A DNA stretch of 64,000 bases from Betaproteobacteria bacterium SCN1 (GTDB lineage: Bacteria; Pseudomonadota; Gammaproteobacteria; Burkholderiales; Thiobacillaceae), in the NCBI GenBank assembly GCA_008923315.1, contig WBSF01000007.1, forward strand, positions 464,247 to 528,246, given 5' to 3'. Positions 28,246-41,730 of the stretch are shown one piece after another (the first letter of the stretch is position 1; each line of letters opens with the position of its first letter). Below the pieces are notes generated by a model. The model worked only from the letters and a program-made list of their open reading frames with translations, ran no database searches and was not told the origin of the DNA. A program made the translations under genes and the position numbers.

Positions 28246-29631
28246 ATGACAACCCGACGCGAATTTTTCCGCCTGGCCGGCGCCGTTGCCGCCTCCGGGG
28301 CCGGCGCCACGCTGGTGAACCGCGCTGCGCTCGCCGCCGTGCCCGAGATCGTGAGCATGGACAAAGCCGAGACCGCGCCGCCGCTCGTGCCGCCCGACGG
28401 CCGGCCCTACAACCCCGTGGTCACGCTGAACGGCTGGACCCTGCCCTGGCGCATGAAGAACGGCGCCAAGGAATTCCACCTCGTGGCCGAACCGGTGGTG
28501 CGCGAGATCGCGCCCGGCATGAAGGCGCATCTGTGGGGTTACAACGGGCAGTCGCCCGGGCCGACCATCGAGGTGGTCGAGGGCGACCGGGTGCGGCTCT
28601 ACGTCACCAACCGCCTGCCCGAGCACACCACCATCCACTGGCATGGCCAGCGCCTGCCCAACGGCATGGACGGCGTCGGCGGCCTGACCCAGCCGCAGAT
28701 CAAGCCGGGCGAGACCTACGTCTACGAATTTGTGGCCAGCCGCCCCGGCACCTTCATGTACCACCCGCACGCCGACGAGATGGTGCAGATGGCGATGGGC
28801 ATGATGGGGTTCTGGGTCACGCATCCCAAGGGCAGGCATCCCCTGATCGAGGCGGTCGACCGCGACTTCTGCTTCCTGCTGAACGCCTACGACATCGATC
28901 CCGGTAGCTACACGCCCAGCGTCAACACCATGACCGAGTTCAACCTGTGGACCTGGAACAGCCGTGCCTTTCCGGGCATCGACTCGCTGAACGTGCGGCT
29001 CAACGACCGGGTGCGCATCCGGATCGGCAATCTCACCATGACCAATCACCCCATCCACCTGCACGGCCACGAATTCAGCGTGACCGGCACCGACGGCGGG
29101 CCGGTGCCCAAATCGGCGCGCTGGCCGGAAGTGACCACCGACATTGCGGTTGGACAGATGCGCCAGATCGAATTCCGTGCCGACGCGCCCGGCGACTGGA
29201 CTTTTCACTGCCACAAGAGCCATCACACCATGAATCCGATGGGCCATGGCGTACCCACGATGATCGGCGTCGACCAGCGCGGTCTGGCCGACCGGATTGC
29301 GCGGCTGGTGCCCGATTACATGAGCATGGGCAGCAGCGGCATGGCCGAGATGAGCGAAATGCAGATGCCGCTGCCGGAGAATACGCTGCCGATGATGATG
29401 GGCGACGGGCCCTTCGGGCCCATCGAGATGGGCGGCATGTTCTCGGTCGTCAAGGTGCGTGCCGACCAGAAGCCGGGTGACTATGCCGATCCCGGCTGGT
29501 ATGCGCAGCCGCCCGGCACCCGGGCGCAAGCCGTCGAAGCGCCGCCGGCGCCGGCGATGCAGAAACCGGCCGCCAGCGGTTCCGGCGATATCGAAGTGAC
29601 GGTTCGCAAGCCGGCGCAGCACCGGCATTGA
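28246..29631 (+). CDS. Tat-exported multicopper oxidase, apparently two-domain
   Basis: A 461-residue periplasmic copper oxidase. A twin-arginine signal (TRREFFRL...) leads residues 1-30. All four copper motifs are present: HWHG 131-134, HPH 173-175, HPIHLHGH 268-275 and HCHKSHHTMNPM 321-332. The distance from the first to the third motif is only about 137 residues, far less than in CueO/CopA, so the middle domain seems missing. A Met-rich stretch follows (359-397). Probable role: periplasmic Cu(I) oxidation and copper tolerance. It begins 10 bases after the TolC-type gene. Confidence 0.85.
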   Translation: MTTRREFFRLAGAVAASGAGATLVNRAALAAVPEIVSMDKAETAPPLVPPDGRPYNPVVTLNGWTLPWRMKNGAKEFHLVAEPVVREIAPGMKAHLWGYNGQSPGPTIEVVEGDRVRLYVTNRLPEHTTIHWHGQRLPNGMDGVGGLTQPQIKPGETYVYEFVASRPGTFMYHPHADEMVQMAMGMMGFWVTHPKGRHPLIEAVDRDFCFLLNAYDIDPGSYTPSVNTMTEFNLWTWNSRAFPGIDSLNVRLNDRVRIRIGNLTMTNHPIHLHGHEFSVTGTDGGPVPKSARWPEVTTDIAVGQMRQIEFRADAPGDWTFHCHKSHHTMNPMGHGVPTMIGVDQRGLADRIARLVPDYMSMGSSGMAEMSEMQMPLPENTLPMMMGDGPFGPIEMGGMFSVVKVRADQKPGDYADPGWYAQPPGTRAQAVEAPPAPAMQKPAASGSGDIEVTVRKPAQHRH

Positions 29632-30247: not shown

Positions 30248-31633
30248 CTAAACCTCCTGGCGCACCTGACCGGCTGGAGTGCGAACAGGCGCGCTGAAAT
30301 GCAGGATCGCAGCCAGGCCATGCCCGCCGTCCGGCCGGGCAAGCCCCGCGTCGAATTCGAGCCGGGCACGGGAAAGCTCGGCGATGCGCGCAACGATAGA
30401 CAGGCCGAGCCCGCAGCCTTCGGCATCGGTTTCACCCCGGGCAAACCGGGCGGTGAGCCGGCCGCGCAAACTGTCCGGCACACCGGGGCCGTTGTCGGCT
30501 ACGCTGAAACGGCATTCTTCCGTCAGGCGGGTCAGGCGCACCTCGATGTGCGCGCCTTCGCCCGCGTAGCGCAGGGCATTGTCGAGCAGATTGCGTGCCG
30601 CGATCTCGAACCACGCGGGCACCATGGCAATGCGGCAATCCGGCGCCAATGCCACATCCAGTGTCTGCGCGCGCCGCGCCGCTTCGGCCATGCGTCTCGC
30701 GCAAAGTGTGTCCAGCACGGGTGCGGGGTCGAAAGCCGATTCGCCGGCCTGGTGCGTCGGTTCGACACGGGCCAGTGTCAGGAGCTGCTCGACCAGATGC
30801 GTCATGCGGTCGACGCCGTCGATCACGTGATCGAGCGCGTGCCGGCGCGCACCGTCGGCCGTGGCGCGCTGGGCGACCTGTGCCTGGACCTTGAGGGCGG
30901 CCAGCGGCGTGCGCAGCTCGTGCGCCGCATCGGCGGTGAACCGGCGCTCGCTGTCGAGTGCGGCGCTGACGCGCGGCAGCAGGGCGTTGAAGGCGTCGCG
31001 CAGCAGCGCGATTTCGTCCGGCAGGGCGTTGCCGCCAAGCGGTGCGAGCGCGCGCGGGTCGAGCGCATCGACCTCGCGCGCCAGTGCCTCAACGGGGCGG
31101 AGCGCCCGCCGCACCGCCCACCAGACCGCCAGCGCAATGAACGGCAGGGCCAGCGTGGCCGGCACCAGCAATGACAGGCCGATTTCGCGCGCCAGCCGTT
31201 CGCGCGAGGCGTGCGCCTGCCCGACCGCGATGCGGTAATGGCCGTCCCGGCTCCGGGCTGTGAAGAAGCGCCATCGTGCGCCGTCGTGGAAACGTTCGCT
31301 GAATCCGTCCGCCAGTCCGGGTTCGAAACTGGCATGCCCCGGCGATGTGGCCAGCTGGCGCGGTATGCCGTCGTCCGTGAACCAGATTTCGAATGCCGTC
31401 GGCACCGGATTGTGTACGGCGTGTTCGTGCAGGACTTCGACCACGTGTTCGATTTCGCCGCTGCTGACGAAGGCGAGCAGTGTGTCGGCCACCTGGGTCA
31501 GCTGGCTGTCGAGCAGTTCGTCCGCTTCGTGATGCGCGCGCTGGTAGACCACCACGGCGGCCAGCAGCCAGACAACCGCCAGTGCGCCGCTCAGCATGAG
31601 CGTGAGTTGGCGGCGCAGGGAATGACGGCTCAC
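30248..31633 (-). CDS. Sensor histidine kinase, QseC/PmrB type
   Basis: Inner membrane sensor kinase of 461 residues. Two transmembrane segments (about 12-30 and 152-174) flank a periplasmic domain of about 120 residues. They are followed by a HAMP-like linker, the H-box FTADAAHELRTPLAALK with H238, and N/G boxes NLLDNALRYA and DNGPGVP...GCGLGLSIV. The start is GTG 31633, overlapping the regulator stop (GTGA). The ligand is not evident. Neighbouring metal and envelope genes suggest a PmrB/QseC-like role sensing metal or surface stress. Confidence 0.9.
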   Translation of the reverse strand: MSRHSLRRQLTLMLSGALAVVWLLAAVVVYQRAHHEADELLDSQLTQVADTLLAFVSSGEIEHVVEVLHEHAVHNPVPTAFEIWFTDDGIPRQLATSPGHASFEPGLADGFSERFHDGARWRFFTARSRDGHYRIAVGQAHASRERLAREIGLSLLVPATLALPFIALAVWWAVRRALRPVEALAREVDALDPRALAPLGGNALPDEIALLRDAFNALLPRVSAALDSERRFTADAAHELRTPLAALKVQAQVAQRATADGARRHALDHVIDGVDRMTHLVEQLLTLARVEPTHQAGESAFDPAPVLDTLCARRMAEAARRAQTLDVALAPDCRIAMVPAWFEIAARNLLDNALRYAGEGAHIEVRLTRLTEECRFSVADNGPGVPDSLRGRLTARFARGETDAEGCGLGLSIVARIAELSRARLEFDAGLARPDGGHGLAAILHFSAPVRTPAGQVRQEV

Positions 31634-32295
31634 GGGGCCGGGTCCGACAGGGTGTATCCCGCGCCGCGCACGGTACGGATCGTGTCGTTGCCGAGTTTTT
31701 TCCGCAGATGGTGGATATGCACTTCGAGCGCGTTGCTGCCGACGGCGTCGTCCCAGCTGTAGAGCTTCTCCTCGAGCGCGCGCCGGCTCAGTACGCGCCC
31801 GGCGTTCAGCATCAGCACGTGCAGCAGGTCGAATTCGCGGCTGGTCAGGTCCACCGGCTGGCCGGCCCGCATGACAGTCCGTCCGGCGGGGTCGAGCACG
31901 ATCTCGTTCAGCGTCAGGCAGGGCGAAGCCTGTCCGTGCGCCCGGCGAAGCAGGGCGCGCAGGCGGGCGGCGATCTCGTCGAGATCGAAGGGTTTGAGCA
32001 CATAGTCGTCGGCGCCGAGATCGAGGCCGCGCACCTTGTCCGACATCTGGTCGCGCGCGGTGAGAATCAGTACCGGCGTGGCATCGGAACGCGCCCGCAG
32101 CCATTGCAGCACCGACAGTCCGTCGCGTCTGGGCAGGCCGAGATCGAGCACGACGGCATCGAAGCGTTCCGCGCCCAGCGCCGCGACGGCGGCTTCGCCG
32201 TCGCGCAGCCAGTCGACGGCGAAGCCGGCCTGCAGCAAGCCGGCTTTGAGGCCGTCGCCCAGCAGGCGGTCGTCTTCTACTACCAGGATGCGCAT
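31630..32295 (-). CDS. OmpR-family response regulator, QseB/PmrA type
   Basis: A 221-residue regulator. The receiver has acidic E7-D8-D9, phospho-acceptor D51 in VVLDLGLP and K101-like KPFDLDE; the winged-helix DNA-binding domain follows with LTSREFDLLHVLM and RTVRGAGYTL. It overlaps the kinase gene by four bases. The subfamily fits QseB/PmrA, and boxes of the PmrA/QseB kind lie nearby at 33040-33056 and 34970-34986, so those are its likely targets. Confidence 0.92.
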   Translation of the reverse strand: MRILVVEDDRLLGDGLKAGLLQAGFAVDWLRDGEAAVAALGAERFDAVVLDLGLPRRDGLSVLQWLRARSDATPVLILTARDQMSDKVRGLDLGADDYVLKPFDLDEIAARLRALLRRAHGQASPCLTLNEIVLDPAGRTVMRAGQPVDLTSREFDLLHVLMLNAGRVLSRRALEEKLYSWDDAVGSNALEVHIHHLRKKLGNDTIRTVRGAGYTLSDPAP

Positions 32296-32366
32296 GGTGG
32301 TCTGCCGTATGTCATCGTCCGGGTGCGCCGGCGGCGCACCTGGGTGAAGCATAGCAGCCGCCGGGC

Positions 32367-33017
32367 TCAATCCTGCCGGGCGAGCGGATCGGCAGGCGGG
32401 ACGCGTCTGTCCGTCAGCATGCGTTGCGCAACGCGTTCCCCGCGCAGATGGTGGAAGACCAGTGCCGCGAGATGCAGGCCGACGAACCCGAGCATCAGGG
32501 CGAAACCGGCTTCGTGCGGCTCCTTGAACAGCCCGGCGGCCCACCGGGCATGCCCGAGCCAGCCGGATAGCGGGCCGGCACCGAACTCCGCCGCAGCCAG
32601 GACCAGTCCAGTAGCGACCATCAACGCTGCCACACCGTATGCGAACAGATATGCCAGACTGGCAAGCGGGTCGTGGCCGGCCCGGTGGCTGCGGGGAAGA
32701 CGCAGGGTGGTCAGCGCCGCTTTCCATACTGCGGGATGCCACAGGTCCCGCCAGCGCGCGCTGGCAGGACCGAACACGCCCCACAGCACGCGCAGTGCCA
32801 GTACGGCGGCCAGGCCATAGCCTGCGAGGATGTGCAGGTTCCAGATCGCGTCTTCATAAGGGCCGTGCTCGAAGGCCTCGGCAAGCTGGCTGGTCGCGAC
32901 GAGCGCGAGGATGGCCAGCGCCAGCGCCCAGTGCAGCAGGCGCAGGACGGGGCCGAACACGTACAGATCCGCGGCAATGGGGTTTGGACGCATGGCATTG
33001 GCTCCGGCACTGGACAT
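32367..33017 (-). CDS. Cytochrome b561-type membrane protein
   Basis: A 216-residue four-helix b-type cytochrome. It has histidines in the membrane segments (LLHWALALAIL, NLHILAGYGLA, EPHEAGFALML, GLHLAALVFHHL) positioned as haem ligands, as in cytochrome b561/hydrogenase cytochrome b proteins. The start is ATG 33017 or ATG 32993 (MRPNPIA). It lies 23 bases beyond the sulfatase stop and behind a degenerate PmrA-type box, so it may belong to the two-component regulon. Confidence 0.85.
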   Translation of the reverse strand: MSSAGANAMRPNPIAADLYVFGPVLRLLHWALALAILALVATSQLAEAFEHGPYEDAIWNLHILAGYGLAAVLALRVLWGVFGPASARWRDLWHPAVWKAALTTLRLPRSHRAGHDPLASLAYLFAYGVAALMVATGLVLAAAEFGAGPLSGWLGHARWAAGLFKEPHEAGFALMLGFVGLHLAALVFHHLRGERVAQRMLTDRRVPPADPLARQD

Positions 33018-33039
33018 GGCGCCACGATAAGCCGCGCAG

Positions 33040-33056
33040 CTTAGTGCATGCTTAAG
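33040..33056. promoter_or_regulatory. Degenerate PmrA/QseB-type box before cytochrome b561
   Basis: CTTAGT-GCATG-CTTAAG: one perfect and one imperfect half-site, five bases apart. It begins at the sulfatase stop codon and ends 23-39 bases upstream of the cytochrome b561 start on the minus strand. Confidence 0.45.
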
Positions 33057-34927
33057 ACGGCGGGACCGGGCACGTGGCGCAGCTGGCCGTCCCGGTCGCG
33101 CCGGGCCGCTTCCTGGTAGAACGCGATTGCGCGCCCGATGTCGGCGTCCGGCCGCTTCACCGTGCCCACGGGTTCCATGTGCGCGTCAAGCCGCCAGTCC
33201 TCGATCTTGCGTCCGGCGCTCAGTACGACCAGTCGATCCGGCGTCAGGTAGCCGAGCTTCTGGTAGGTTGCGATGAAGGCACGTCCCGCGTCCGGGTAGG
33301 CGCGCAACACGCTGCGGCCGATGAAGCGGTTGCGTTCGGGCAGGTTCAGCAGATCGAGCACCGTGGGCACCAGATCGATCTGGCTCGCCAGGCGCGTATC
33401 GACGTGCGGTGCGATGTGCGCGGGCGCATAGAGAACGGCCGGGATCAGATAGTTTTCGGGCGGCAGGCTCGTGCGTCCCTTGCTCGACGCGCAGTGATCG
33501 GCAACCACCACGAAGAGCGTGTCCTTGAACCAGGGTTTCCTGCGCGCGGCCTCGATGAAACGGCCGAGCGCCCAGTCGGCATATTTCACCGCGCCGGACC
33601 GGCCGGTGGGCAGATCGATCCGTCCGTCCGGGAACGTGAACGGCGTGTGGTTCGAGGTGGTCATCAGATGCATGAGAAAAGGTTTGCCCCGGGCGGCATC
33701 GCGATCCATCAGCTCCAGCGCGTAGTCGTACAGATGCTCGTCGGCCAGGCCCCAGATGTTGCCGAAGCCGCGATGGCGCGCCGGGAACTGGCTGCGATCG
33801 ACGGGCTGGTAGTGGTTGCCCGAGAAATAGGCGTCCATGTTGTCGAAGCGCGCGTAGCCGCCGTAGACGAAGCGGTTGACGTAGCCGTGGTCGGCGAGCA
33901 CCGCGCCCAGCGTTTCCAGATCGCGGTTGTGTTCGCGCCAGATGATCGAATGGCCGGGCAGCGGCGGAATCGCCAGCGACAGCGCTTCCAGCCCGCGCAC
34001 GGTGCGGTTGCCGGCGGCGTGCAGATTGGCGAGGAACAGCCCCGAATCGGCGAGACGGTCGATGTTGGGCGTGAGCCCCTTGCGGTTGCCGCCGTGCGCC
34101 GTGAAGCTCGACGACAGGCTTTCCAGCGTGACGATGACGACGTTCCGGGGCGCGCTGGCTTCGACGATGCGCGGCAGTTCCGCGGCGGGTGCGAGCGGGG
34201 TGCCGGCGCGCGTCGCGTAGAAATCGAAATAGTCGATGGCGTTGTGGGTGAACGCGTGGCCGAAGCTGTACAGGCCGTTGGCGGAGAGTTCGCGCTGGTA
34301 TTCGTTGGCGCCCCGTCGCTGCTCGATGGAAAAGCCCGCGGCGACGCCCGCGGCGACGGCCAGGCTGGCGAACCCGAGCGCGACGCGGACGGCGCGCGGC
34401 GCGTCGGGGGTCGCTGCGCGCGCGAGCCAGTCGCGGCTGGCCCACACCGCGGCCGCCACCAGCACGGCCAGCGCCCCGAGCAGCGCCCCGACCGGAAAGC
34501 TTTCGCGGATGTTGCCGACGACTTCGTGGGTGTAGACGAGATAGTCGACCGCGATGAAGTTGAAGCGCGCGCCGAACTCGTCCCAGAAGAACCATTCGGC
34601 GAGCACGCCGAAACCGAGTGCAAACAGCAGGACGGCGGCGACGCCCCAGACCAGCAGCCGGCGCAGCGGGCCGGCCGGCCGGCGGCGGCCGAGCGCGCCT
34701 TCGAACGCCAGCAGCGCGGGCAGCACGAGCGCGAGCGTGGCCAGATCGAACAGCAGGCCGACGCCCATGACCGTCAGCAGGGACGGCGCGTTCAATTGCG
34801 CGGCCTGCCAGGTCGCCGCGGCGAGCGTCAGGCGCAGGCCGCCATGCAGCAGCAGGAAGAGCGCGGCCAGCCAGGCGCTCAAGGGGTAGGGGCGGGCGCA
34901 GCGGAGCAGCGTAACGGGCACGGACAT
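33041..34927 (-). CDS. LTA synthase-family membrane sulfatase/phosphotransferase
   Basis: A 628-residue protein with about five N-terminal transmembrane helices (to about residue 190) and a C-terminal alkaline-phosphatase-fold domain. The family motifs are VTLESLSSSF, LTPNIDRLADSGLF, GNRTVRGLEAL (threonine expected as nucleophile) and VVADHCASSKG (metal ligands). In proteobacteria such enzymes transfer phosphoglycerol or phosphoethanolamine to surface glycans or lipid A. The upstream PmrA-type box supports envelope remodelling under the local two-component system. Exact substrate is not deducible. Confidence 0.82.
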   Translation of the reverse strand: MSVPVTLLRCARPYPLSAWLAALFLLLHGGLRLTLAAATWQAAQLNAPSLLTVMGVGLLFDLATLALVLPALLAFEGALGRRRPAGPLRRLLVWGVAAVLLFALGFGVLAEWFFWDEFGARFNFIAVDYLVYTHEVVGNIRESFPVGALLGALAVLVAAAVWASRDWLARAATPDAPRAVRVALGFASLAVAAGVAAGFSIEQRRGANEYQRELSANGLYSFGHAFTHNAIDYFDFYATRAGTPLAPAAELPRIVEASAPRNVVIVTLESLSSSFTAHGGNRKGLTPNIDRLADSGLFLANLHAAGNRTVRGLEALSLAIPPLPGHSIIWREHNRDLETLGAVLADHGYVNRFVYGGYARFDNMDAYFSGNHYQPVDRSQFPARHRGFGNIWGLADEHLYDYALELMDRDAARGKPFLMHLMTTSNHTPFTFPDGRIDLPTGRSGAVKYADWALGRFIEAARRKPWFKDTLFVVVADHCASSKGRTSLPPENYLIPAVLYAPAHIAPHVDTRLASQIDLVPTVLDLLNLPERNRFIGRSVLRAYPDAGRAFIATYQKLGYLTPDRLVVLSAGRKIEDWRLDAHMEPVGTVKRPDADIGRAIAFYQEAARRDRDGQLRHVPGPAVLSMH

Positions 34928-34969
34928 GCGACATCCTTATCGGGAGGATGCGTACTGTCGCGCCGCGCG

Positions 34970-34986
34970 CTTAAGGCAGGCTTAAG
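34970..34986. promoter_or_regulatory. Perfect PmrA/QseB-type box between divergent operons
   Basis: CTTAAG-GCAGG-CTTAAG. Each half-site is itself palindromic, so the box reads as a consensus direct repeat on both strands. It lies 43 bases from the sulfatase ATG and 92 bases from the GTG of the efflux operon's first gene, and could control both. Confidence 0.65.
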
Positions 34987-35077
34987 CTTGTGCGATCAGG
35001 ATTGCCTTCGAGCCGGCCCGGCCGGGTTGGCGGCGCGGCCAGCCGCGCCTTTTGCGTAGACCGGACAGCGAGGCACC

Positions 35078-35461
35078 GTGATCCGACGGACTATCCGTTC
35101 CCTGTTGCTGATGGGCTTCATCGTCCTGCAGACGGTGGCGCCGTTCATCCACGCCCATGCGGGCGCGGCGCAATGGCAGCATGCGGGCTGGCTGCATCTG
35201 CATGCCGGCCTTGCGGACGCGGGCGATGCCGGGCACGCGCAGGTCTCGAACGAGCACGGCACGGCCGTGGTCGTGGCCGACGGTCTGCCGGGGCGCGTCA
35301 AGGCGGCGGTGCCGCCGTCCGGCGCGCTGCTGCTTCCCCGGATCGAAATCGTGGCCTGCGCGGCCGCGCCGCGCGCGCCGCCCGAAAACGCCTCGCCGCA
35401 GACATCCGCAACCCCGCCCCCGTACAGCCTGCCCTTCGCCTTGGCGCCGCCGCGCGCCTGA
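35078..35461 (+). CDS. Exported His-rich small protein heading the RND operon
   Basis: A 127-residue protein starting at GTG 35078 with AGCGAGG upstream. It has a hydrophobic signal segment (SLLLMGFIVLQTVAPFIHA), then a histidine-rich stretch (HAHAG, QHAGWLHLHAGLADAGDAGH) and a Pro/Ala-rich tail. Small His-rich exported proteins often head czc/cus-type operons and may buffer or deliver metal. I do not assign a family. It lies 62 bp before the adaptor gene. Confidence 0.6.
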   Translation: MIRRTIRSLLLMGFIVLQTVAPFIHAHAGAAQWQHAGWLHLHAGLADAGDAGHAQVSNEHGTAVVVADGLPGRVKAAVPPSGALLLPRIEIVACAAAPRAPPENASPQTSATPPPYSLPFALAPPRA

Positions 35462-35523
35462 TCGACCGGGCGGCGCGCCGTGTGGCGCGCCGGATATCGA
35501 TCAGTCGCATTCGGAGCGCTTTC

Positions 35524-36597
35524 ATGTCTGTTCTTACCGTTGTTGCTTCCCGCCGCGCGCTGGGCGCGGGGATGTTGTGGATACTGTCGTGCGCGATTCC
35601 GGCCACGGCGGCCGAGACGCTGCCGCTGAACGCGGCGCAGAAGCGCAATCTCGGCATCGTCGTCGCGCCGGCCGTGCCGCGCGCATCGAGTTCCACCCCG
35701 GCCTATCCGGCGCGGGTCGCGCTGTCGCCGGCGGGCGTGCGCGTCGTGGCCGCGGCCGGCGCGGCGCTCGTCGTGCAGCTTCACGTGCAGGCCGGCGACG
35801 CCGTGCGGCAGGGCGCGCCGCTGGTCAGCCTGTCGATGCCGGGGCTGGCCGAGGCGCAGGCGGCGCTGGTGCAGGCGCGCGTGCGCGCGCAGCTCGCGGC
35901 GGACAATGCCGCGCGCGACGAAAAGCTCTTCGCCGAAGGCCTGATCGCCGAATCGCGCCTGCGGGCGGCGCGCGCCGAGACGCAATCCGCGCAGGCGAAT
36001 CGGGCGGCGGCGCAGACGGCGCGCACGCTGCTCGGCCAGGGCACGGTGTCCGGCAGCACGCTGACGCTGACCGCGCCGATGGCAGGCACGGTGATCGAAA
36101 GCCCGGTCGAGCCCGGCCAGCGGGTCGACGCCGGCATGCCGCTGCTGAAGCTGGCCGACCTGTCGCGGCTGACGCTGGACATTCCGCTGAGCCCGGCAGA
36201 AGCGCAGGGCGTGACCGTCGGCATGGACGTGCATCTGACGGACAGCACGGCAAGCGGGCGGGTGACCGCGGTGCTGCCGCAGCTCGATGCGGCGCAGAGC
36301 GTGCGGGTGCGCGCCAGTCTCGTCGATCCGCAGCACCGCCTGCGGCCGGGCCAGTCGGTCCGGGCGACGCTGGCGGGACGGACCGCGGGACAGACGCAGG
36401 CGGTGCCGGCCGGCGCGCTGGTCTGGAAACTCGACGTGCCCTACGTGTTCGTCGAGACCGCGCAGGGCTTCGCGCCGACGCGCGTGACGCTCGTCCGGCA
36501 GAACGCGCGCGAGGCCGAGATCGGCGGGCTGGCCGCCGGCAGCCGCGTCGCGGTCGCCGGCGTGGCCGCGCTCAAGGCGCAATGGCTGTCGGAGTGA
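35524..36597 (+). CDS. RND efflux periplasmic adaptor (membrane fusion protein)
   Basis: Periplasmic adaptor of 357 residues linking the RND pump to its outer membrane channel. It has a signal peptide (to about residue 30), lipoyl-like half motifs around VVQLHVQAGDAVRQGAPL and GTVIESPVEPGQRVDAGMPL, and an alpha-hairpin between them (AEAQAALVQARVRAQLAADN...). No N-terminal metal-binding extension is obvious. It is followed three bases later by the pump gene. Longer frames upstream of ATG 35524 run through another gene. Confidence 0.9.
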   Translation: MSVLTVVASRRALGAGMLWILSCAIPATAAETLPLNAAQKRNLGIVVAPAVPRASSSTPAYPARVALSPAGVRVVAAAGAALVVQLHVQAGDAVRQGAPLVSLSMPGLAEAQAALVQARVRAQLAADNAARDEKLFAEGLIAESRLRAARAETQSAQANRAAAQTARTLLGQGTVSGSTLTLTAPMAGTVIESPVEPGQRVDAGMPLLKLADLSRLTLDIPLSPAEAQGVTVGMDVHLTDSTASGRVTAVLPQLDAAQSVRVRASLVDPQHRLRPGQSVRATLAGRTAGQTQAVPAGALVWKLDVPYVFVETAQGFAPTRVTLVRQNAREAEIGGLAAGSRVAVAGVAALKAQWLSE

Positions 36598-36600
36598 ACC

Positions 36601-39600
36601 ATGCTGACGCACATCACCGAATTCGCACTGGCGCGGCGCTGGCTGGTTCTCGTTCTGGCCGCGGTGTTGGCGGGGCTGGGCGTACGCGCCTTCCAACTGA
36701 TCCCGATCGATGCCTTTCCTGACGTTTCGACGACGCAGGTCAAGCTGATCCTGAAAGCGCCCGGCATGACGCCGGAAGAGGTCGAGGCGCGCATCACCCA
36801 GCCGGTCGAGACCGAGCTGCTGGGGATCCCGCGCCAGACCATCCTGCGCAGCCAGTCGAAGAACGCGCTGGCCGACATCACCGTCGATTTCGAGGAAGGC
36901 ACCGACATCTACTGGGCGCGGCAGCAGGTGGCCGAACGCTTCGCCAACGTCAAGGGCGATCTCCCGGCCAACGTCGCGGGCGGCCTGGCGCCGATCTCGA
37001 CTCCGCTGTCCGAGCTTTTCATGTTCACCATCGAAGGCCCGCTGTCGCTGGCGGACAAGCGCACGCTGCTCGACTGGACGATCCGCCCGCAGTTGCGGGC
37101 CCTGCCCGGCGTGGCCGACGTCAATGCGCTCGGCGGCCGGGTCGCGACGTTCGCGGTGAGCCCCGATCCCGTGGCGCTGGCCGCCCGTGGCGTGAGCTTC
37201 GACGAACTGCGCGGCGCGCTGGCGCAAAACACCCGCAACGACGGCGCCGGCCGCGTCGACGAGGGCGAGGAAACCTGGGTCGTGCGCGTCGACGGCGGCA
37301 TCCGCTCGCTCGACGATTTGCGCGCGATCGGGATCAAGTCCGTCGACGGCGTGGTGGTGACCGTCGGCGACGTCGCGCAGGTCGGAATGGATGCGCTGAC
37401 CCGCTACGGCGCGGTGACGCAGAACGGCCAGGGCGAGGCCGTCGAAGGCCTGGTGATCGGCCTGAAGGGTGTCAACGCCGGTGCGCTCATCGAGCGCGTC
37501 AAGGCGAAGCTGGCGGCCATCCAGGCCACGCTGCCCGCGGGCGTGACGATCTCGCCGTTCTACGACCGCTCGCAACTGGTCGGGCGCGCCGTGGGTACGG
37601 TCAGCCGTGCGCTGATCGAGGCGGCGGTGCTGGTGGTGGTGCTGCTGCTGCTGTTTCTCGGCAACCTGCGGGCGGCGCTCGTCGTCGCGCTGATCCTGCC
37701 CTTGAGCGTGCTCGCCACCTTCATCCTGATGCGCCTGTTCGGCTTGTCGGCCAACCTGATGAGCCTGGGCGGGCTCGCCATCGCCATCGGCCTGCTGGTC
37801 GACGCCGCCGTGGTGGTGGTGGAGAACGTCGTCGCCCATTTGGCGCACGACCCCGCCAACCTGCGGGAAACGCCGACCCAGCGCGTGCTGTGGGCGGTGC
37901 AGGAAGTGGCGCGTCCGGTGGCCTCGGGCATCGCCATCATCGCCATCGTGTTCCTGCCGCTGCTGACCCTGCAGGGTCTGGAAGGCAAGCTCTTCGCACC
38001 GGTGGCGCTGACCATCGTGTTCGCGCTGGCCGCGTCGCTGCTGCTCGCGATCACCGTCATCCCGGTGCTGGCCTCGCTGCTGCTGAAGCAGGCGCCGCAC
38101 GAGGACCCCTGGCTGCTGCGCACCATCCAGCGCGCCTACACGCCGCTGCTCGATCGCGCGCTGGCGCGGCCGAAGCCCGTCTACGTTGCGGCGGGCGTGC
38201 TGATGCTGGCGGCTGCCGGCGTCTATCCGCTGATCGGCAAGACCTTCATGCCGGTGATGGACGAGGGCGACATCCTGCTGCAACTGGAAAAGCTGCCGTC
38301 GATCAGCCTCGAACAGTCGATCCAGCAGGATCTGCGCGTGCAGCAGGCCTTGCTGAAATCGGTGCCGGAAATCCGCCGCATCGTCGGCCGCGTCGGTGCC
38401 GACGAACTGGGGCTCGACCCGATGGGGCTGAACGACACCGACAGCTTTCTCGTGCTGAAACCGGTGAAGGAATGGCGGCGTCCGGACAAGGACTGGCTGA
38501 TCGACGAGATTCGCAAGGTGGTCGAGGGCTTCCCGGGCATCGCCTACAACTTCACCCAGCCGATCGACATGCGCGTGTCGGAGATGCTCACCGGCTCGCG
38601 CGGCGACGTCGCGATCAAGGTCTTCGGCCCCGATCTCGCCACGCTCAACCGGCTGACCGGGGCGATTGCCGGCGCCATCGGCAAGGTTCCCGGCGCGCTC
38701 GACGTCTATACCCAGCAGAACGCCGGCGTGCAGTACCTGCAGGCGGAGATCGACCGCCAGGCCGCCGCCCGTTTCGGTCTGTCGGTGGACGACGTCGCGC
38801 AGCTCTTGCGTACCCAGCTCGAAGGCGAGGTCATCGGCGTGATCCAGCAGCAGGGTCGCCGGGTGCCCCTGCAACTGCGCGGGCCGGCCGACCTGCGGGC
38901 TTCGCCCGACGCGCTGCAGGCGATCCGGCTGACGCTGGCCGACGGTCGCACGATCGGTCTCGACCAGGTCGCCCGGCTCAGGCGCACCGACGGTCCGGTG
39001 GCGGTGAAACGCGAAAACGCGGCCCGCTTCGCCGTGGTGCAGAGCAACGTATCCGGCCGCGACCTGGTCGGTTTCGTCGAGGACGCCCGGGCCGCGGTCG
39101 CCGCGCAGGTGGAACTGCCGCCGGGCTACCACCTCGCCTGGGGCGGCCAGTTCGAGAACCAGCAGCGCGCGGCGACGCGTCTGCTGCTGGTGGTGCCGGT
39201 CGCCCTGCTGCTGATCGGCTTCCTGCTTTACGTCACCTTCGGCGAGGCGCGCCAGGCCGTGCTGGTGATGGCGAACGTGCCGCTCGCGCTGGTCGGCGGC
39301 ATCTTCGCGCTGGCGGCTTCGGGCGAGTATCTGTCGGTGCCGGCCTCGGTGGGATTCATTGCGCTGCTGGGCATCGCCGTGCTGAACGGCGTGGTGCTGG
39401 TCAGTTATTTCAACCAGTTGCGGGCGCAGGGCCTGCGCGGCCACGCCGTCGTCCGCGACGGCGCGCTGCGGCGGCTGCGGCCGGTGCTGATGACGGCGAG
39501 CATCGCCGCCTTCGGCCTGGTGCCGCTGCTGTTCGCCAGCGGGCCGGGCTCCGAAATCCAGCGCCCGCTCGCCATCGTCGTGATCGGCGGACTGGTCAGC

Positions 39601-39672
39601 GCCACGCTGCTGACGCTGGTGCTGCTGCCGCTGCTCTATCGCCAGTTCATCATGAAAGGGGAATCCGCATGA
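36601..39672 (+). CDS. HME-family RND heavy metal efflux pump
   Basis: Inner membrane proton-driven pump of 1023 residues with twelve transmembrane segments and two large periplasmic loops, in the CzcA/CusA family (IPIDAFPDVSTTQVKL at the start). The fourth helix reads IAIGLLVDAAVVVVENV. It has the key Asp but an Ala where the Co/Zn/Cd-exporting CzcA group has DGA, so substrate specificity cannot be copied from CzcA. Copper or silver is plausible given the nearby copper oxidase. It overlaps the next gene by four bases. Confidence 0.92.
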   Translation: MLTHITEFALARRWLVLVLAAVLAGLGVRAFQLIPIDAFPDVSTTQVKLILKAPGMTPEEVEARITQPVETELLGIPRQTILRSQSKNALADITVDFEEGTDIYWARQQVAERFANVKGDLPANVAGGLAPISTPLSELFMFTIEGPLSLADKRTLLDWTIRPQLRALPGVADVNALGGRVATFAVSPDPVALAARGVSFDELRGALAQNTRNDGAGRVDEGEETWVVRVDGGIRSLDDLRAIGIKSVDGVVVTVGDVAQVGMDALTRYGAVTQNGQGEAVEGLVIGLKGVNAGALIERVKAKLAAIQATLPAGVTISPFYDRSQLVGRAVGTVSRALIEAAVLVVVLLLLFLGNLRAALVVALILPLSVLATFILMRLFGLSANLMSLGGLAIAIGLLVDAAVVVVENVVAHLAHDPANLRETPTQRVLWAVQEVARPVASGIAIIAIVFLPLLTLQGLEGKLFAPVALTIVFALAASLLLAITVIPVLASLLLKQAPHEDPWLLRTIQRAYTPLLDRALARPKPVYVAAGVLMLAAAGVYPLIGKTFMPVMDEGDILLQLEKLPSISLEQSIQQDLRVQQALLKSVPEIRRIVGRVGADELGLDPMGLNDTDSFLVLKPVKEWRRPDKDWLIDEIRKVVEGFPGIAYNFTQPIDMRVSEMLTGSRGDVAIKVFGPDLATLNRLTGAIAGAIGKVPGALDVYTQQNAGVQYLQAEIDRQAAARFGLSVDDVAQLLRTQLEGEVIGVIQQQGRRVPLQLRGPADLRASPDALQAIRLTLADGRTIGLDQVARLRRTDGPVAVKRENAARFAVVQSNVSGRDLVGFVEDARAAVAAQVELPPGYHLAWGGQFENQQRAATRLLLVVPVALLLIGFLLYVTFGEARQAVLVMANVPLALVGGIFALAASGEYLSVPASVGFIALLGIAVLNGVVLVSYFNQLRAQGLRGHAVVRDGALRRLRPVLMTASIAAFGLVPLLFASGPGSEIQRPLAIVVIGGLVSATLLTLVLLPLLYRQFIMKGESA

Positions 39673-40940
39673 ACGCGGTGCGTTGTCTGACGCTGGCGCT
39701 GGCATGCGCCCTGCCGGTCTGGCCTCTGACAGGGCAGGCCGGCCATCTGCCCGATCCGCAGGCGGCGCAGGCGGCCCTGCAGGCCGCGCCAGCCGTCGCG
39801 CAGGCGCGCGGGGAACTGGCCGCGCAGACGTACCGGAGCGAGGGGCTTGGGCGCGGCACCGCCGAATGGTCCGTCACGGCGGACGCGCTGCAACGCCGCG
39901 TCGACGTGCCCCGGGATCGTTACGCCGAATGGGGGCTCGCCGTTTCGCGGCCGCTGCGCATGCCCGCGCGTGCCGAGGCCGACCGCGCGCTCGGCGCGGC
40001 GCGGCTCGCCCACGCCGAGGCCAGTCTGGGCGAGGCGCTGCACGAAAGCGGCCGGCAGTTGCTCGCACTGTGGTTCGACTGGCTGGCCGAAGCCGGCCAG
40101 TCGGACGTGTGGCGCACGCAGGTCGAACTGGCCGAGCGCCAGCTCGACGCCGTGAATGCGCGGATCAGGCTGGGCGAAGCGGCGCGGGCGGAACGGGTCA
40201 GCGCCGAGGCCGCGCGGGCGAACGTCCGGTTGCAGGCGCAGCAGGCCGCCGCGCGCCTGCGGCAGGCCGCCGCCCGCCTGCGCGCGCAGTATCCGACGCT
40301 GGCGCCCGCGCTGGACGAGGCCCTGCCGCAGCCGGCGGCGCCCGCGGGCGCCGCCCCGGACTATGTCGAGGCGGTGCTCGCGCACAGCCACGAGAACCTG
40401 CGCGCCCGGCGCCAGGCGGAGATGCTGGGGGCCGAAGCGCGCCAGTACGCGCGCCGCCGCAGCGTCGATCCGAATCTGGGCGTGTTCTACAAGAACGAAA
40501 CGGGCGGCAGCGAGCACGTGCTGGGCGTGAGTCTCGGGCTGACGCTGCCGGGCCCGGCGCGGCGCAGCGAACAGCAGGCGGCGGAAGCGCTGCGCGATAC
40601 GGCGAACGACGCGGCGGCGCGTCTGGAGGCGCGTCTGCGCGCCGAGGCCGAGGCGAATTTCGAGGCGGCGACGGCGCTGGCGGCGAACTGGCGGCAGGCC
40701 GAGCAGGCCGCGCTGGCACTGGAAGAATCGGCCCGGCTGGCGGCGCGGGCCTACGCCCTCGGCGAAGGCGGGCTCGACGCGGTGCTGACGGCGCGCCGGC
40801 TGGCGCTGGAAGGGCGTCTGCAGGAACGCCAGATGCGGGTGGCGGCGCTGGCGGCGGATGCGCGCCTGAAGCTGGATGCGCACACCCTGTGGCCGCTGGA
40901 TGCCGATGTGGGTATGGACAGCGCGCACGCCCACCCATAG
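39669..40940 (+). CDS. TolC-family outer membrane protein of the RND operon
   Basis: A 423-residue protein with a signal peptide (ending near TGQAGH) and long Ala/Arg/Glu-rich helices typical of outer membrane factors, including GVSLGLTLPGPARRS in the second repeat. It has no lipoprotein cysteine, unlike the one at 26.9-28.2 kb. The ATG overlaps the pump stop (ATGA), making a complete three-component efflux operon with the two preceding genes. It ends in HAHP. Confidence 0.88.
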   Translation: MNAVRCLTLALACALPVWPLTGQAGHLPDPQAAQAALQAAPAVAQARGELAAQTYRSEGLGRGTAEWSVTADALQRRVDVPRDRYAEWGLAVSRPLRMPARAEADRALGAARLAHAEASLGEALHESGRQLLALWFDWLAEAGQSDVWRTQVELAERQLDAVNARIRLGEAARAERVSAEAARANVRLQAQQAAARLRQAAARLRAQYPTLAPALDEALPQPAAPAGAAPDYVEAVLAHSHENLRARRQAEMLGAEARQYARRRSVDPNLGVFYKNETGGSEHVLGVSLGLTLPGPARRSEQQAAEALRDTANDAAARLEARLRAEAEANFEAATALAANWRQAEQAALALEESARLAARAYALGEGGLDAVLTARRLALEGRLQERQMRVAALAADARLKLDAHTLWPLDADVGMDSAHAHP

Positions 40941-40956
40941 CGGATGAGCATGCCCT

Positions 40957-41730
40957 CTAGGGCGTATCGGCGGCCGCGGTTGAAGCCGATGCCGACGTTT
41001 CGGCCGGCACAGGCGCGACGGGCGCGAGCCCTGTCGCACCCATGCGGCGCGCTTCTTCCTGCATGGCCGCGATCTGTTCGGGCTTGAGCTGCCACACCAG
41101 GCTGTCGCGCGCCTTGGCGGCCGACTCTACGCCCTGTGCGGCGGCGAGATTGAACCAGAGATAGGCCCGTGCCTTGTCGATCGGGGTGCCGGTCCCGTAG
41201 CGGTGGAGCTCGCCGAGGCTGTATTGCGCGGGCGCGTAGCCCCGCAGTGCGGGTTTTTCGATCCAGTTGAACGCGGCCTTGTAGTCCTGCACCACACCGC
41301 GCCCTTGCAGCAGGGCCAGGCCGTAGCGGTACTGGGCTTCGAGCACGCCCTGGCGGGCGGCTTGGGCAAACCATTTCGCGGCTTCGGTTTCGTTCTTGAT
41401 GACGCCGTCGCCTTCCAGGTAGCGCAGGCCGAGCGCAAGCTGTGCGTCGGGATCGCCTTTCGCGGCGCGCTCGTGCGGCACGCGTTCCGGCGGTGCGTTG
41501 GCGGATTCGACATGCGCCGGCGGTGTGGCCAGCCACATGGTGGCGGCGATCAGTACGCCGCCGGCCAGCAGCAGCAGGATGGGTTTGGCCGGATTGAGCA
41601 TCCAGAACCGGTGATGGCATTCGCGGCAGCGCAGCGGCGAATAGAGCGTCATGCGGCGGATGCCGTCATAAGCGTGGAGTTTGGCGCCGCGTATCTTGTC
41701 GCTGCCGCACTGGGGACAGGTACGTGTCAT
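40957..41730 (-). CDS. Zinc-ribbon, membrane-anchored Sel1-repeat protein
   Basis: A 257-residue protein with an unusual layout. An N-terminal zinc ribbon (C5, C8, C35, C38) and one transmembrane helix (about 46-66) are followed by about three Sel1-like repeats (LALGLRYLEGDGV, YGLALLQGRGVVQDY, YSLGELHRYGTGTP) in the periplasm, and an Ala/Pro-rich tail. Sel1 repeats mediate protein contacts. I infer an envelope scaffold or stress role but cannot be specific. It converges on the RND operon. Confidence 0.75.
   Translation of the reverse strand: MTRTCPQCGSDKIRGAKLHAYDGIRRMTLYSPLRCRECHHRFWMLNPAKPILLLLAGGVLIAATMWLATPPAHVESANAPPERVPHERAAKGDPDAQLALGLRYLEGDGVIKNETEAAKWFAQAARQGVLEAQYRYGLALLQGRGVVQDYKAAFNWIEKPALRGYAPAQYSLGELHRYGTGTPIDKARAYLWFNLAAAQGVESAAKARDSLVWQLKPEQIAAMQEEARRMGATGLAPVAPVPAETSASASTAAADTP

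Follow-up and report, generated by a model that had tools for sequence, protein, structure and literature searches.

A conserved QseB/PmrA-type box between divergent metal-efflux and sulfatase-family genes in Betaproteobacteria bacterium SCN1 as a candidate two-way promoter switch

The window analysed here is a 64,000-nt stretch of the genome of Betaproteobacteria bacterium SCN1. Two sets of genes diverge from a 150-nt gap between the ORFs at 33041-34927 (− strand) and 35078-35461 (+ strand). Within that gap lies a candidate shared operator box, CTTAAG-GCAGG-CTTAAG (CTTAAGGCAGGCTTAAG; 34970-34986, no strand assigned), both half-sites of which are exact. The rightward genes, all on the + strand, begin with one for a small His-rich protein (35078-35461), which matches no Pfam or NCBIfam family and has homologues at the same place in relatives. 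They continue with a CzcB/CusB-like periplasmic adaptor (35524-36597; RND_mfp model, 130 bits, over cut-off), a heavy-metal RND pump of the CusA/CzcA family (36601-39672), and an outer-membrane efflux protein (39669-40940; Pfam OEP, 55 bits). The original prediction placed a heavy metal RND operon beside the box, and the pump bears this out with a TIGR00914 score of 1047 bits against a cut-off of 701; its best solved relatives are ZneA and CusA. A gene for a Sel1-repeat protein (40957-41730) is convergent with the RND operon, and it sits beside the region in most relatives, even those without the RND operon. The RND leader also contains a terminator-like hairpin with a TTTT tail (35032-35049). 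Attenuation in the leader was considered and rejected: the stretch folds no better than shuffled sequences (z 0.5), and a terminator-like pattern is present in only 1 of the 12 relatives' leaders compared.

The leftward genes, all on the − strand, begin with one for an LtaS-like membrane protein of the sulfatase superfamily (33041-34927; Pfam Sulfatase, 137.9 bits), hereafter the sulfatase. This had been called an LTA-synthase-family enzyme. The protein scores 45 bits with the NCBIfam LTA synthase model, far below the cut-off of 970, and it is below the cut-off for phosphoglycerol transferase I too, leaving the Pfam Sulfatase domain as the one assignment reached. Next come a cytochrome b561 family protein (32367-33017; PF01292, 108 bits), a QseB/PmrA-like response regulator (31630-32295), and a QseC/PmrB-like histidine kinase (30248-31633; domains 2CSK_N, HisKA and HATPase_c), whose GTG start overlaps the regulator stop. 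Both members of this pair are under the NCBIfam equivalog cut-offs: the regulator scores 276 bits with the QseB model (cut-off 345) and 251.5 bits with the PmrA model (cut-off 330), and the kinase scores 257.8 bits with the QseC model (cut-off 475). A multicopper oxidase gene (28246-29631) lies near the kinase gene, as it does in several relatives.

The regulator and kinase genes are oriented as the sulfatase gene is, with the cytochrome b561 gene between sulfatase and regulator. From this arrangement, the sulfatase, cytochrome b561, QseB-like and QseC-like genes probably form one operon, with the regulator and kinase distal. The pair had been described as lying 3 kb from the box. While the positions are correct, the two genes are not mere neighbors; they are the distal genes of the probable sulfatase operon. 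Their place in a probable target operon means that the sensor, too, is probably under feedback control by the box. In most relatives, the leftward operon consists of genes for cytochrome b561, DUF1924/SHP, dihaem cytochrome c, regulator and kinase. The SCN1 genome has no DUF1924/SHP or dihaem cytochrome c gene at that place; about 70 nt are left (32296-32366), and the sulfatase gene stands in front. A second, weaker box with two mismatches, CTTAAG-CATGC-ACTAAG (33040-33056, − strand), overlaps the sulfatase stop and precedes the cytochrome b561 gene, and boxes are found at this place in relatives as well. Ten nt after it is a putative −10 hexamer for the cytochrome-regulator-kinase part, TATCGT (33024-33029, − strand), a −10-like feature being defined throughout as six nucleotides of which the second is A and the sixth is T (A2/T6 hexamer). 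The corresponding hexamer in relatives is mostly TACAGT or TAGAGT. The annotated ATG of the cytochrome gene is near the hexamer, and the true start may be later. Cytochrome boxes have a hexamer at 10 nt in at least 34 of 40 cases, a lower bound because the neighboring RND box was sometimes picked in the cytochrome list.

How unusual is the box? The original prediction recognized in it the direct-repeat form of PmrA/QseB-type regulators, and this holds: two CTTAAG-like half-sites are directly repeated with a 5-nt spacing (TTAAG-N6-TTAAG), matching the PmrA/BqsR form. A scan of the whole 3.09-Mb genome, which had been proposed as a check, found two exact copies, against 0.02 expected from base composition, together with one copy at one mismatch and eight at two. 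Loose matching carries no signal. Within the window, two box sites are found at up to three mismatches versus 3.5 expected; across the genome, at up to two mismatches, hits to a reversed control pattern outnumber those to the box (77 versus 11). Raw genome-wide enrichment at two to three mismatches is no better than controls and was dropped as evidence. Hence, the case for the box comes from its exactness, spacing and location, and not from loose-match counts. Spacing was assessed across 56 genomes of the genus: of 63 exact CTTAAG pairs separated by 0-20 nt, 47 are spaced by 5 nt and the other 16 are scattered across the remaining spacings (hand tally; binomial p ~1e-48 against equal spacings).

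For location, the neighborhoods of the regulator, sulfatase and RND genes were collected across the genus, and genes and boxes were mapped. RND orthologs were taken as those with at least 70% identity and enough upstream sequence; L364, L366 and L371 had too little and were left out. A box with at most one mismatch lies no more than 2 kb from the RND start in 37 of 38 orthologs, and the mapped RND-side boxes usually precede the small first gene by ~100 nt. The sole ortholog without a box (G066, L365) has no match in its leader even at three mismatches. As controls in the same regions, no palindromic hexamer other than CTTAAG occurs at 5-nt spacing in more than nine of the 37, and CTTAAG at 15 other spacings occurs in at most one. 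Four of five RND paralogs at 60-61% identity lack the box, so the box is no general feature of such pumps; the fifth (G064, L287) has an exact box ~1.9 kb upstream. Two CTTAAG words could in principle stand 11 nt apart by accident, and the finding that loose matches are no commoner than controls would sit comfortably with that. However, an expectation of 0.02 exact copies per genome, the spectrum of spacings, and the location of the box in 37 of 37 regions make such an accident vanishingly improbable. A chance origin is already refuted by the conservation data, and CTTAAG-GCAGG-CTTAAG stands as first read, with both halves exact.

The box is equally a companion of the sulfatase gene. With at most one mismatch, it is found at 15 of 16 sulfatase starts, and the one start without it (G014, L089) is in a stretch that shows neither the regulator nor the RND gene. 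Three sulfatase loci (L091, L161 and L166) have an exact box with no RND gene alongside, and the box is kept with the RND gene in 25 loci without an adjoining sulfatase. Thus, the box accompanies either gene alone. More distant sulfatase homologues (L054-L072) have no box at up to two mismatches, bar one two-mismatch site in L057. The box also follows the regulator: regulator orthologs, fragments included, are present in 48 of the 56 genus genomes, and an exact box occurs in 37 of these 48 versus one of the eight genomes without the regulator (both counts again tallied by hand). Among those eight is G022, which is 75% complete and keeps its cytochrome box. G034 has one-mismatch boxes, yet no close regulator ortholog.

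Putative start signals flank the box at equal distances. For the RND operon, the candidate −10 hexamer is CAGGAT (34997-35002, + strand), 10 nt after the box; for the sulfatase operon, it is GACAGT (34954-34959, − strand), likewise 10 nt after the box. No sigma-70 consensus promoter was found in 32300-35500. An A2/T6 hexamer, usually CAGGAT, lies exactly 10 nt past the RND-side box in 37 of 37 cases, and the E. coli eptA box has the same fixed position before its −10 element. On the opposite side, 11 of the 12 loci that have a sulfatase there show a hexamer at 10 nt, as against 2 of 25 without (Fisher 1e-6), and the twelfth sulfatase-side locus (L088) has an A2/T6 hexamer at 11 nt instead. L170, the closest relative of the window by RND pump (90%), lacks both the sulfatase and a hexamer of this kind on that side. 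Sulfatase state changes seven times on the RND tree, which yields three well-supported independent pairs for a relatedness-aware test of the sulfatase-side hexamer; the test is not significant, with the hexamer following the sulfatase in 2.4 of 3 pairs on average and never opposing it.

Do these hexamers mean that the box serves both sides, as the original prediction had it? The box might drive the RND operon only, with the sulfatase operon using an unrelated promoter across the gap. Retention of the box in the 25 RND loci without an adjoining sulfatase would fit that arrangement, as would the fact that one dimer can point in only one direction at once, and the phylogenetically independent test is weak. 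It is nevertheless unlikely, given the three sulfatase loci that keep an exact box without an RND gene alongside, and given that the −10-like hexamer on that side is almost confined to loci with a sulfatase. A box serving both sides is the reading that the comparison favors: the box is kept with either gene alone, and each gene-bearing side has a −10-like hexamer. Only 37 nt separate the two hexamers (34959 to 34997), too little for two polymerases to be readily accommodated together, and so the promoters probably alternate.

Boxes elsewhere suggest which other genes may be involved. Divergent ArnT-like and PAP2 genes flank the second exact box (L012:7236-7252), and a one-mismatch box (L012:9456) precedes genes for an ArnC-like glycosyltransferase and a DedA-like (VTT-domain) protein. 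Such envelope or lipid-A-type genes are the classical company of the PmrA box. The ArnT-like protein scores 119.6 bits against an NCBIfam ArnT cut-off of 567; since the ArnT, ArnC and phosphatase matches are all below the NCBIfam cut-offs, these proteins are described as "-like" only. A box with at most one mismatch is present at the ArnT/PAP2 site in 8 of the 11 genus genomes that have that PAP2 gene. The three exceptions are G010, G074 and G001, of which G074 has no regulator and G001 has a distant homologue only. The predicted regulon also takes in cytochrome and lipid-A-type genes.

Several further sites were observed. Boxes at L289:4734, L290:927 and L298:5019, each with a −10 feature at 10 nt, precede genes for small, mostly His-rich exported proteins of ~160-176 aa with an HPGW-type motif at the end; the two of these three that were scanned match no Pfam family. 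Boxes with a −10 feature are also found before another cytochrome b561 gene at L290:3684, L291:5015 and L297:4904 (one of the three proteins was scanned). At L192:9085-9112 in G029, three CTTAAG half-sites in 11-nt steps stand directly before the gene for a 57% identical regulator. Exact CTTAAG pairs with a 4-nt spacing occur near genes for a 61-62% identical regulator in G067 (C31:53296) and G071 (C19:82604), perhaps reflecting a paralogous system with another spacing.

The association extends beyond the genus. Beyond the closest three, 77 named loci were considered, 67 of which have at least 2.4 kb of sequence upstream of the regulator. A box with at most two mismatches is found within 3.2 kb in 52 of the 67, and 47 of these 52 have at least one box with a −10 feature; the 15 loci without a box include all three from Trinickia and all seven from Paraburkholderia. 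An RND gene of at least 60% identity is present in nine outside loci. All five with more than 1.1 kb of upstream sequence (L241, L244, L249, L262 and L274) have a box, located 1117-1126 nt before the RND gene and followed at 10 nt by TAGACT or TACACT; the box of L262 has two mismatches. L270 has no box within its upstream sequence, which is only 517 nt long, and the remaining three have no upstream sequence.

Which regulator uses the box? A FastTree phylogeny of 30 sequences places the window regulator with E. coli QseB (local support 0.95) and separates it from BasR/PmrA and from the TctD-like regulator of the same genome. The QseB/PmrA class originally proposed is therefore right, with the correction that the regulator is nearer QseB than PmrA, by both the tree and the bit scores. 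Two His residues have been described as likely determinants of base specificity in PmrA (PMC3973317), and both are kept in the window regulator (EVHIHHLRKK). Another regulator of the same class could use the box, the TctD-like protein encoded at C1:86599 being an example: it shares 55% identity with the window regulator, and it likewise carries a winged-helix DNA-binding domain. That is highly unlikely, however, because its recognition region reads EVYIHRLRRK as opposed to EVHIHHLRKK, and because TctD-like genes occur in several genomes without an exact box (e.g., G034 and G070), whereas the box tracks the neighboring regulator. Hence, the protein that probably uses the box as its operator is the QseB-type regulator of 31630-32295.

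The signal is the least certain part of the proposal. The kinase has a periplasmic HHExDE motif, each position of which is kept in 40-46 of 48 genus kinases, and HHE recurs in the five loci outside the genus that have an RND box. ExxE has been described as the Fe(II) motif of BqsS (PMC12666569). The periplasmic ExxE expected of a BqsS-like iron-sensing kinase, often preceded by a basic residue, is present in the window kinase, although it is not specific: 42 of the 47 scored betaproteobacterial QseC-like kinases outside the genus (73 examined) have it. Because ExxE is so widespread in these kinases, it points to metal only weakly. The switch could be right and its signal not a metal, with redox, NO or cationic envelope damage being sensed and efflux being one of several defenses. 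The autoregulated operon of relatives has DUF1924/SHP and dihaem cytochrome c genes, roles as an oxygenase and as an NO dioxygenase have been discussed for SHP (PMC2909971), and the ArnT-like and PAP2 genes point to envelope damage. Set against this are the metal pump, which is the most constant predicted target besides the system's own operon, and the resemblance of HHExDE to the BqsS Fe(II) motif (PMC12666569), tempered by how common ExxE is in related kinases. A non-metal signal is thus a real prospect, if not a probable one. Our best guess for the signal is a metal ion in the periplasm, for example Fe(II), Zn or Cu, and Fe(II) is as good a guess as copper or zinc.

How does the system compare with those already known? 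The PmrA box has the form CTTAAG-N5-XTTAAT, with a 5-nt spacing (PMC3973317), and the box of the enterobacterial eptA-basRS (pmrCAB) system shares its CTTAAG form and spacing with the window box. At E. coli eptA, CTTAAGGTTGGCTTAAT is followed after 10 nt by GAGCAT, the same geometry of box and hexamer as in the window. The likeness extends to a sulfatase-superfamily envelope enzyme heading a probable regulator-kinase operon and to ArnT-like genes among the predicted targets. Unlike in pmrCAB, the window regulator belongs to the QseB clade, the enzyme is LtaS-like, a metal pump shares the box, and the operon includes a cytochrome b561 gene. The window system resembles QseB/QseC of E. coli and the Pasteurellaceae in regulator clade, recognition helix and predicted autoregulation; the gap between the divergent E. 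coli ygiW and qseB genes holds the box CTTAACAACTTCTTAAG, and QseBC of H. influenzae has been reported to answer Fe(II) (PMC12737762). However, the window pair is below the equivalog cut-offs, ygiW is absent and the targets are others, and E. coli QseC has no HHE, unlike the window kinase.

The operator of BqsR/BqsS (CarR/CarS) from Pseudomonas aeruginosa, TTAAG-N6-TTAAG, is the window motif in other words; BqsR activates from upstream of the start site (PMC4682146), and its kinase likewise has ExxE. The comparison covers the operator and the kinase motif; the targets described in the available text include no metal pump. An SHP operon with a QseC-type sensor (SK2, PMC2909971) matches the cytochrome b561-DUF1924/SHP-DHC-regulator-kinase order of relatives, although the window genome lacks SHP and DHC there. 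A link between the SHP operon and czc genes has already been suggested (PMC2909971); the czc examples in the available text of that source have a sensor of type SK1 or of unspecified type, and come with no description of an operator. In Cupriavidus necator C39, czcC-czcA-czcB lie directly beside qseC-qseB (PMC10304115), a cluster given as annotation only, with no box or shared promoter in the available text. No description of the present operator was found in the open-access literature searched. Thus, operator and regulator are of a known kind, and the combination of targets looks new.

Taken from sequence comparison, it is very likely that an operator of the QseB/PmrA/BqsR type fires two divergent promoters, which are probably mutually exclusive. 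The neighboring QseC-type kinase would phosphorylate the regulator, and a head-to-tail regulator dimer would bind the two half-sites. Because each half-site is palindromic, the dimer can lie in either direction, and each orientation would recruit RNA polymerase to the −10 element 10 nt beyond the box. The rightward start would lead into the metal-efflux operon, and the leftward start into the sulfatase-cytochrome b561-regulator-kinase operon, with feedback on the sensor. We infer that the two promoters fire in turn and not together. The second box, before the cytochrome gene, would give the sensor genes their own autoregulation. Since the box is conserved and the start signals are equidistant on both sides, one sensor probably turns on both sets of genes.

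What are the implications? First, free-living bacteria now provide an example of a QseBC-type system whose proposed regulon is both concrete and conserved. It centers on metal efflux and envelope chemistry, and so bears on the question of what QseC-type kinases sense. Second, a broader proposal can be made, tentatively and as something that may well prove wrong: the betaproteobacterial QseBC/PmrAB-type system could be, fundamentally, a sensor of periplasmic metal whose core regulon comprises its own cytochrome-SHP-QseBC operon, an RND pump for heavy metals and enzymes of the envelope, and with one operator whose palindromic halves and two mutually exclusive divergent promoters make a two-way switch worked by a single dimer. 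If so, the proposed adrenergic and quorum role of QseC would be a late addition to a metal sensor, or a misreading of one. Third, the locus offers a natural experiment on whether two promoters can share one direct-repeat operator whose halves are palindromes, since there are relatives with both genes and relatives with either alone, in which the second −10 element is mostly present or absent to match.
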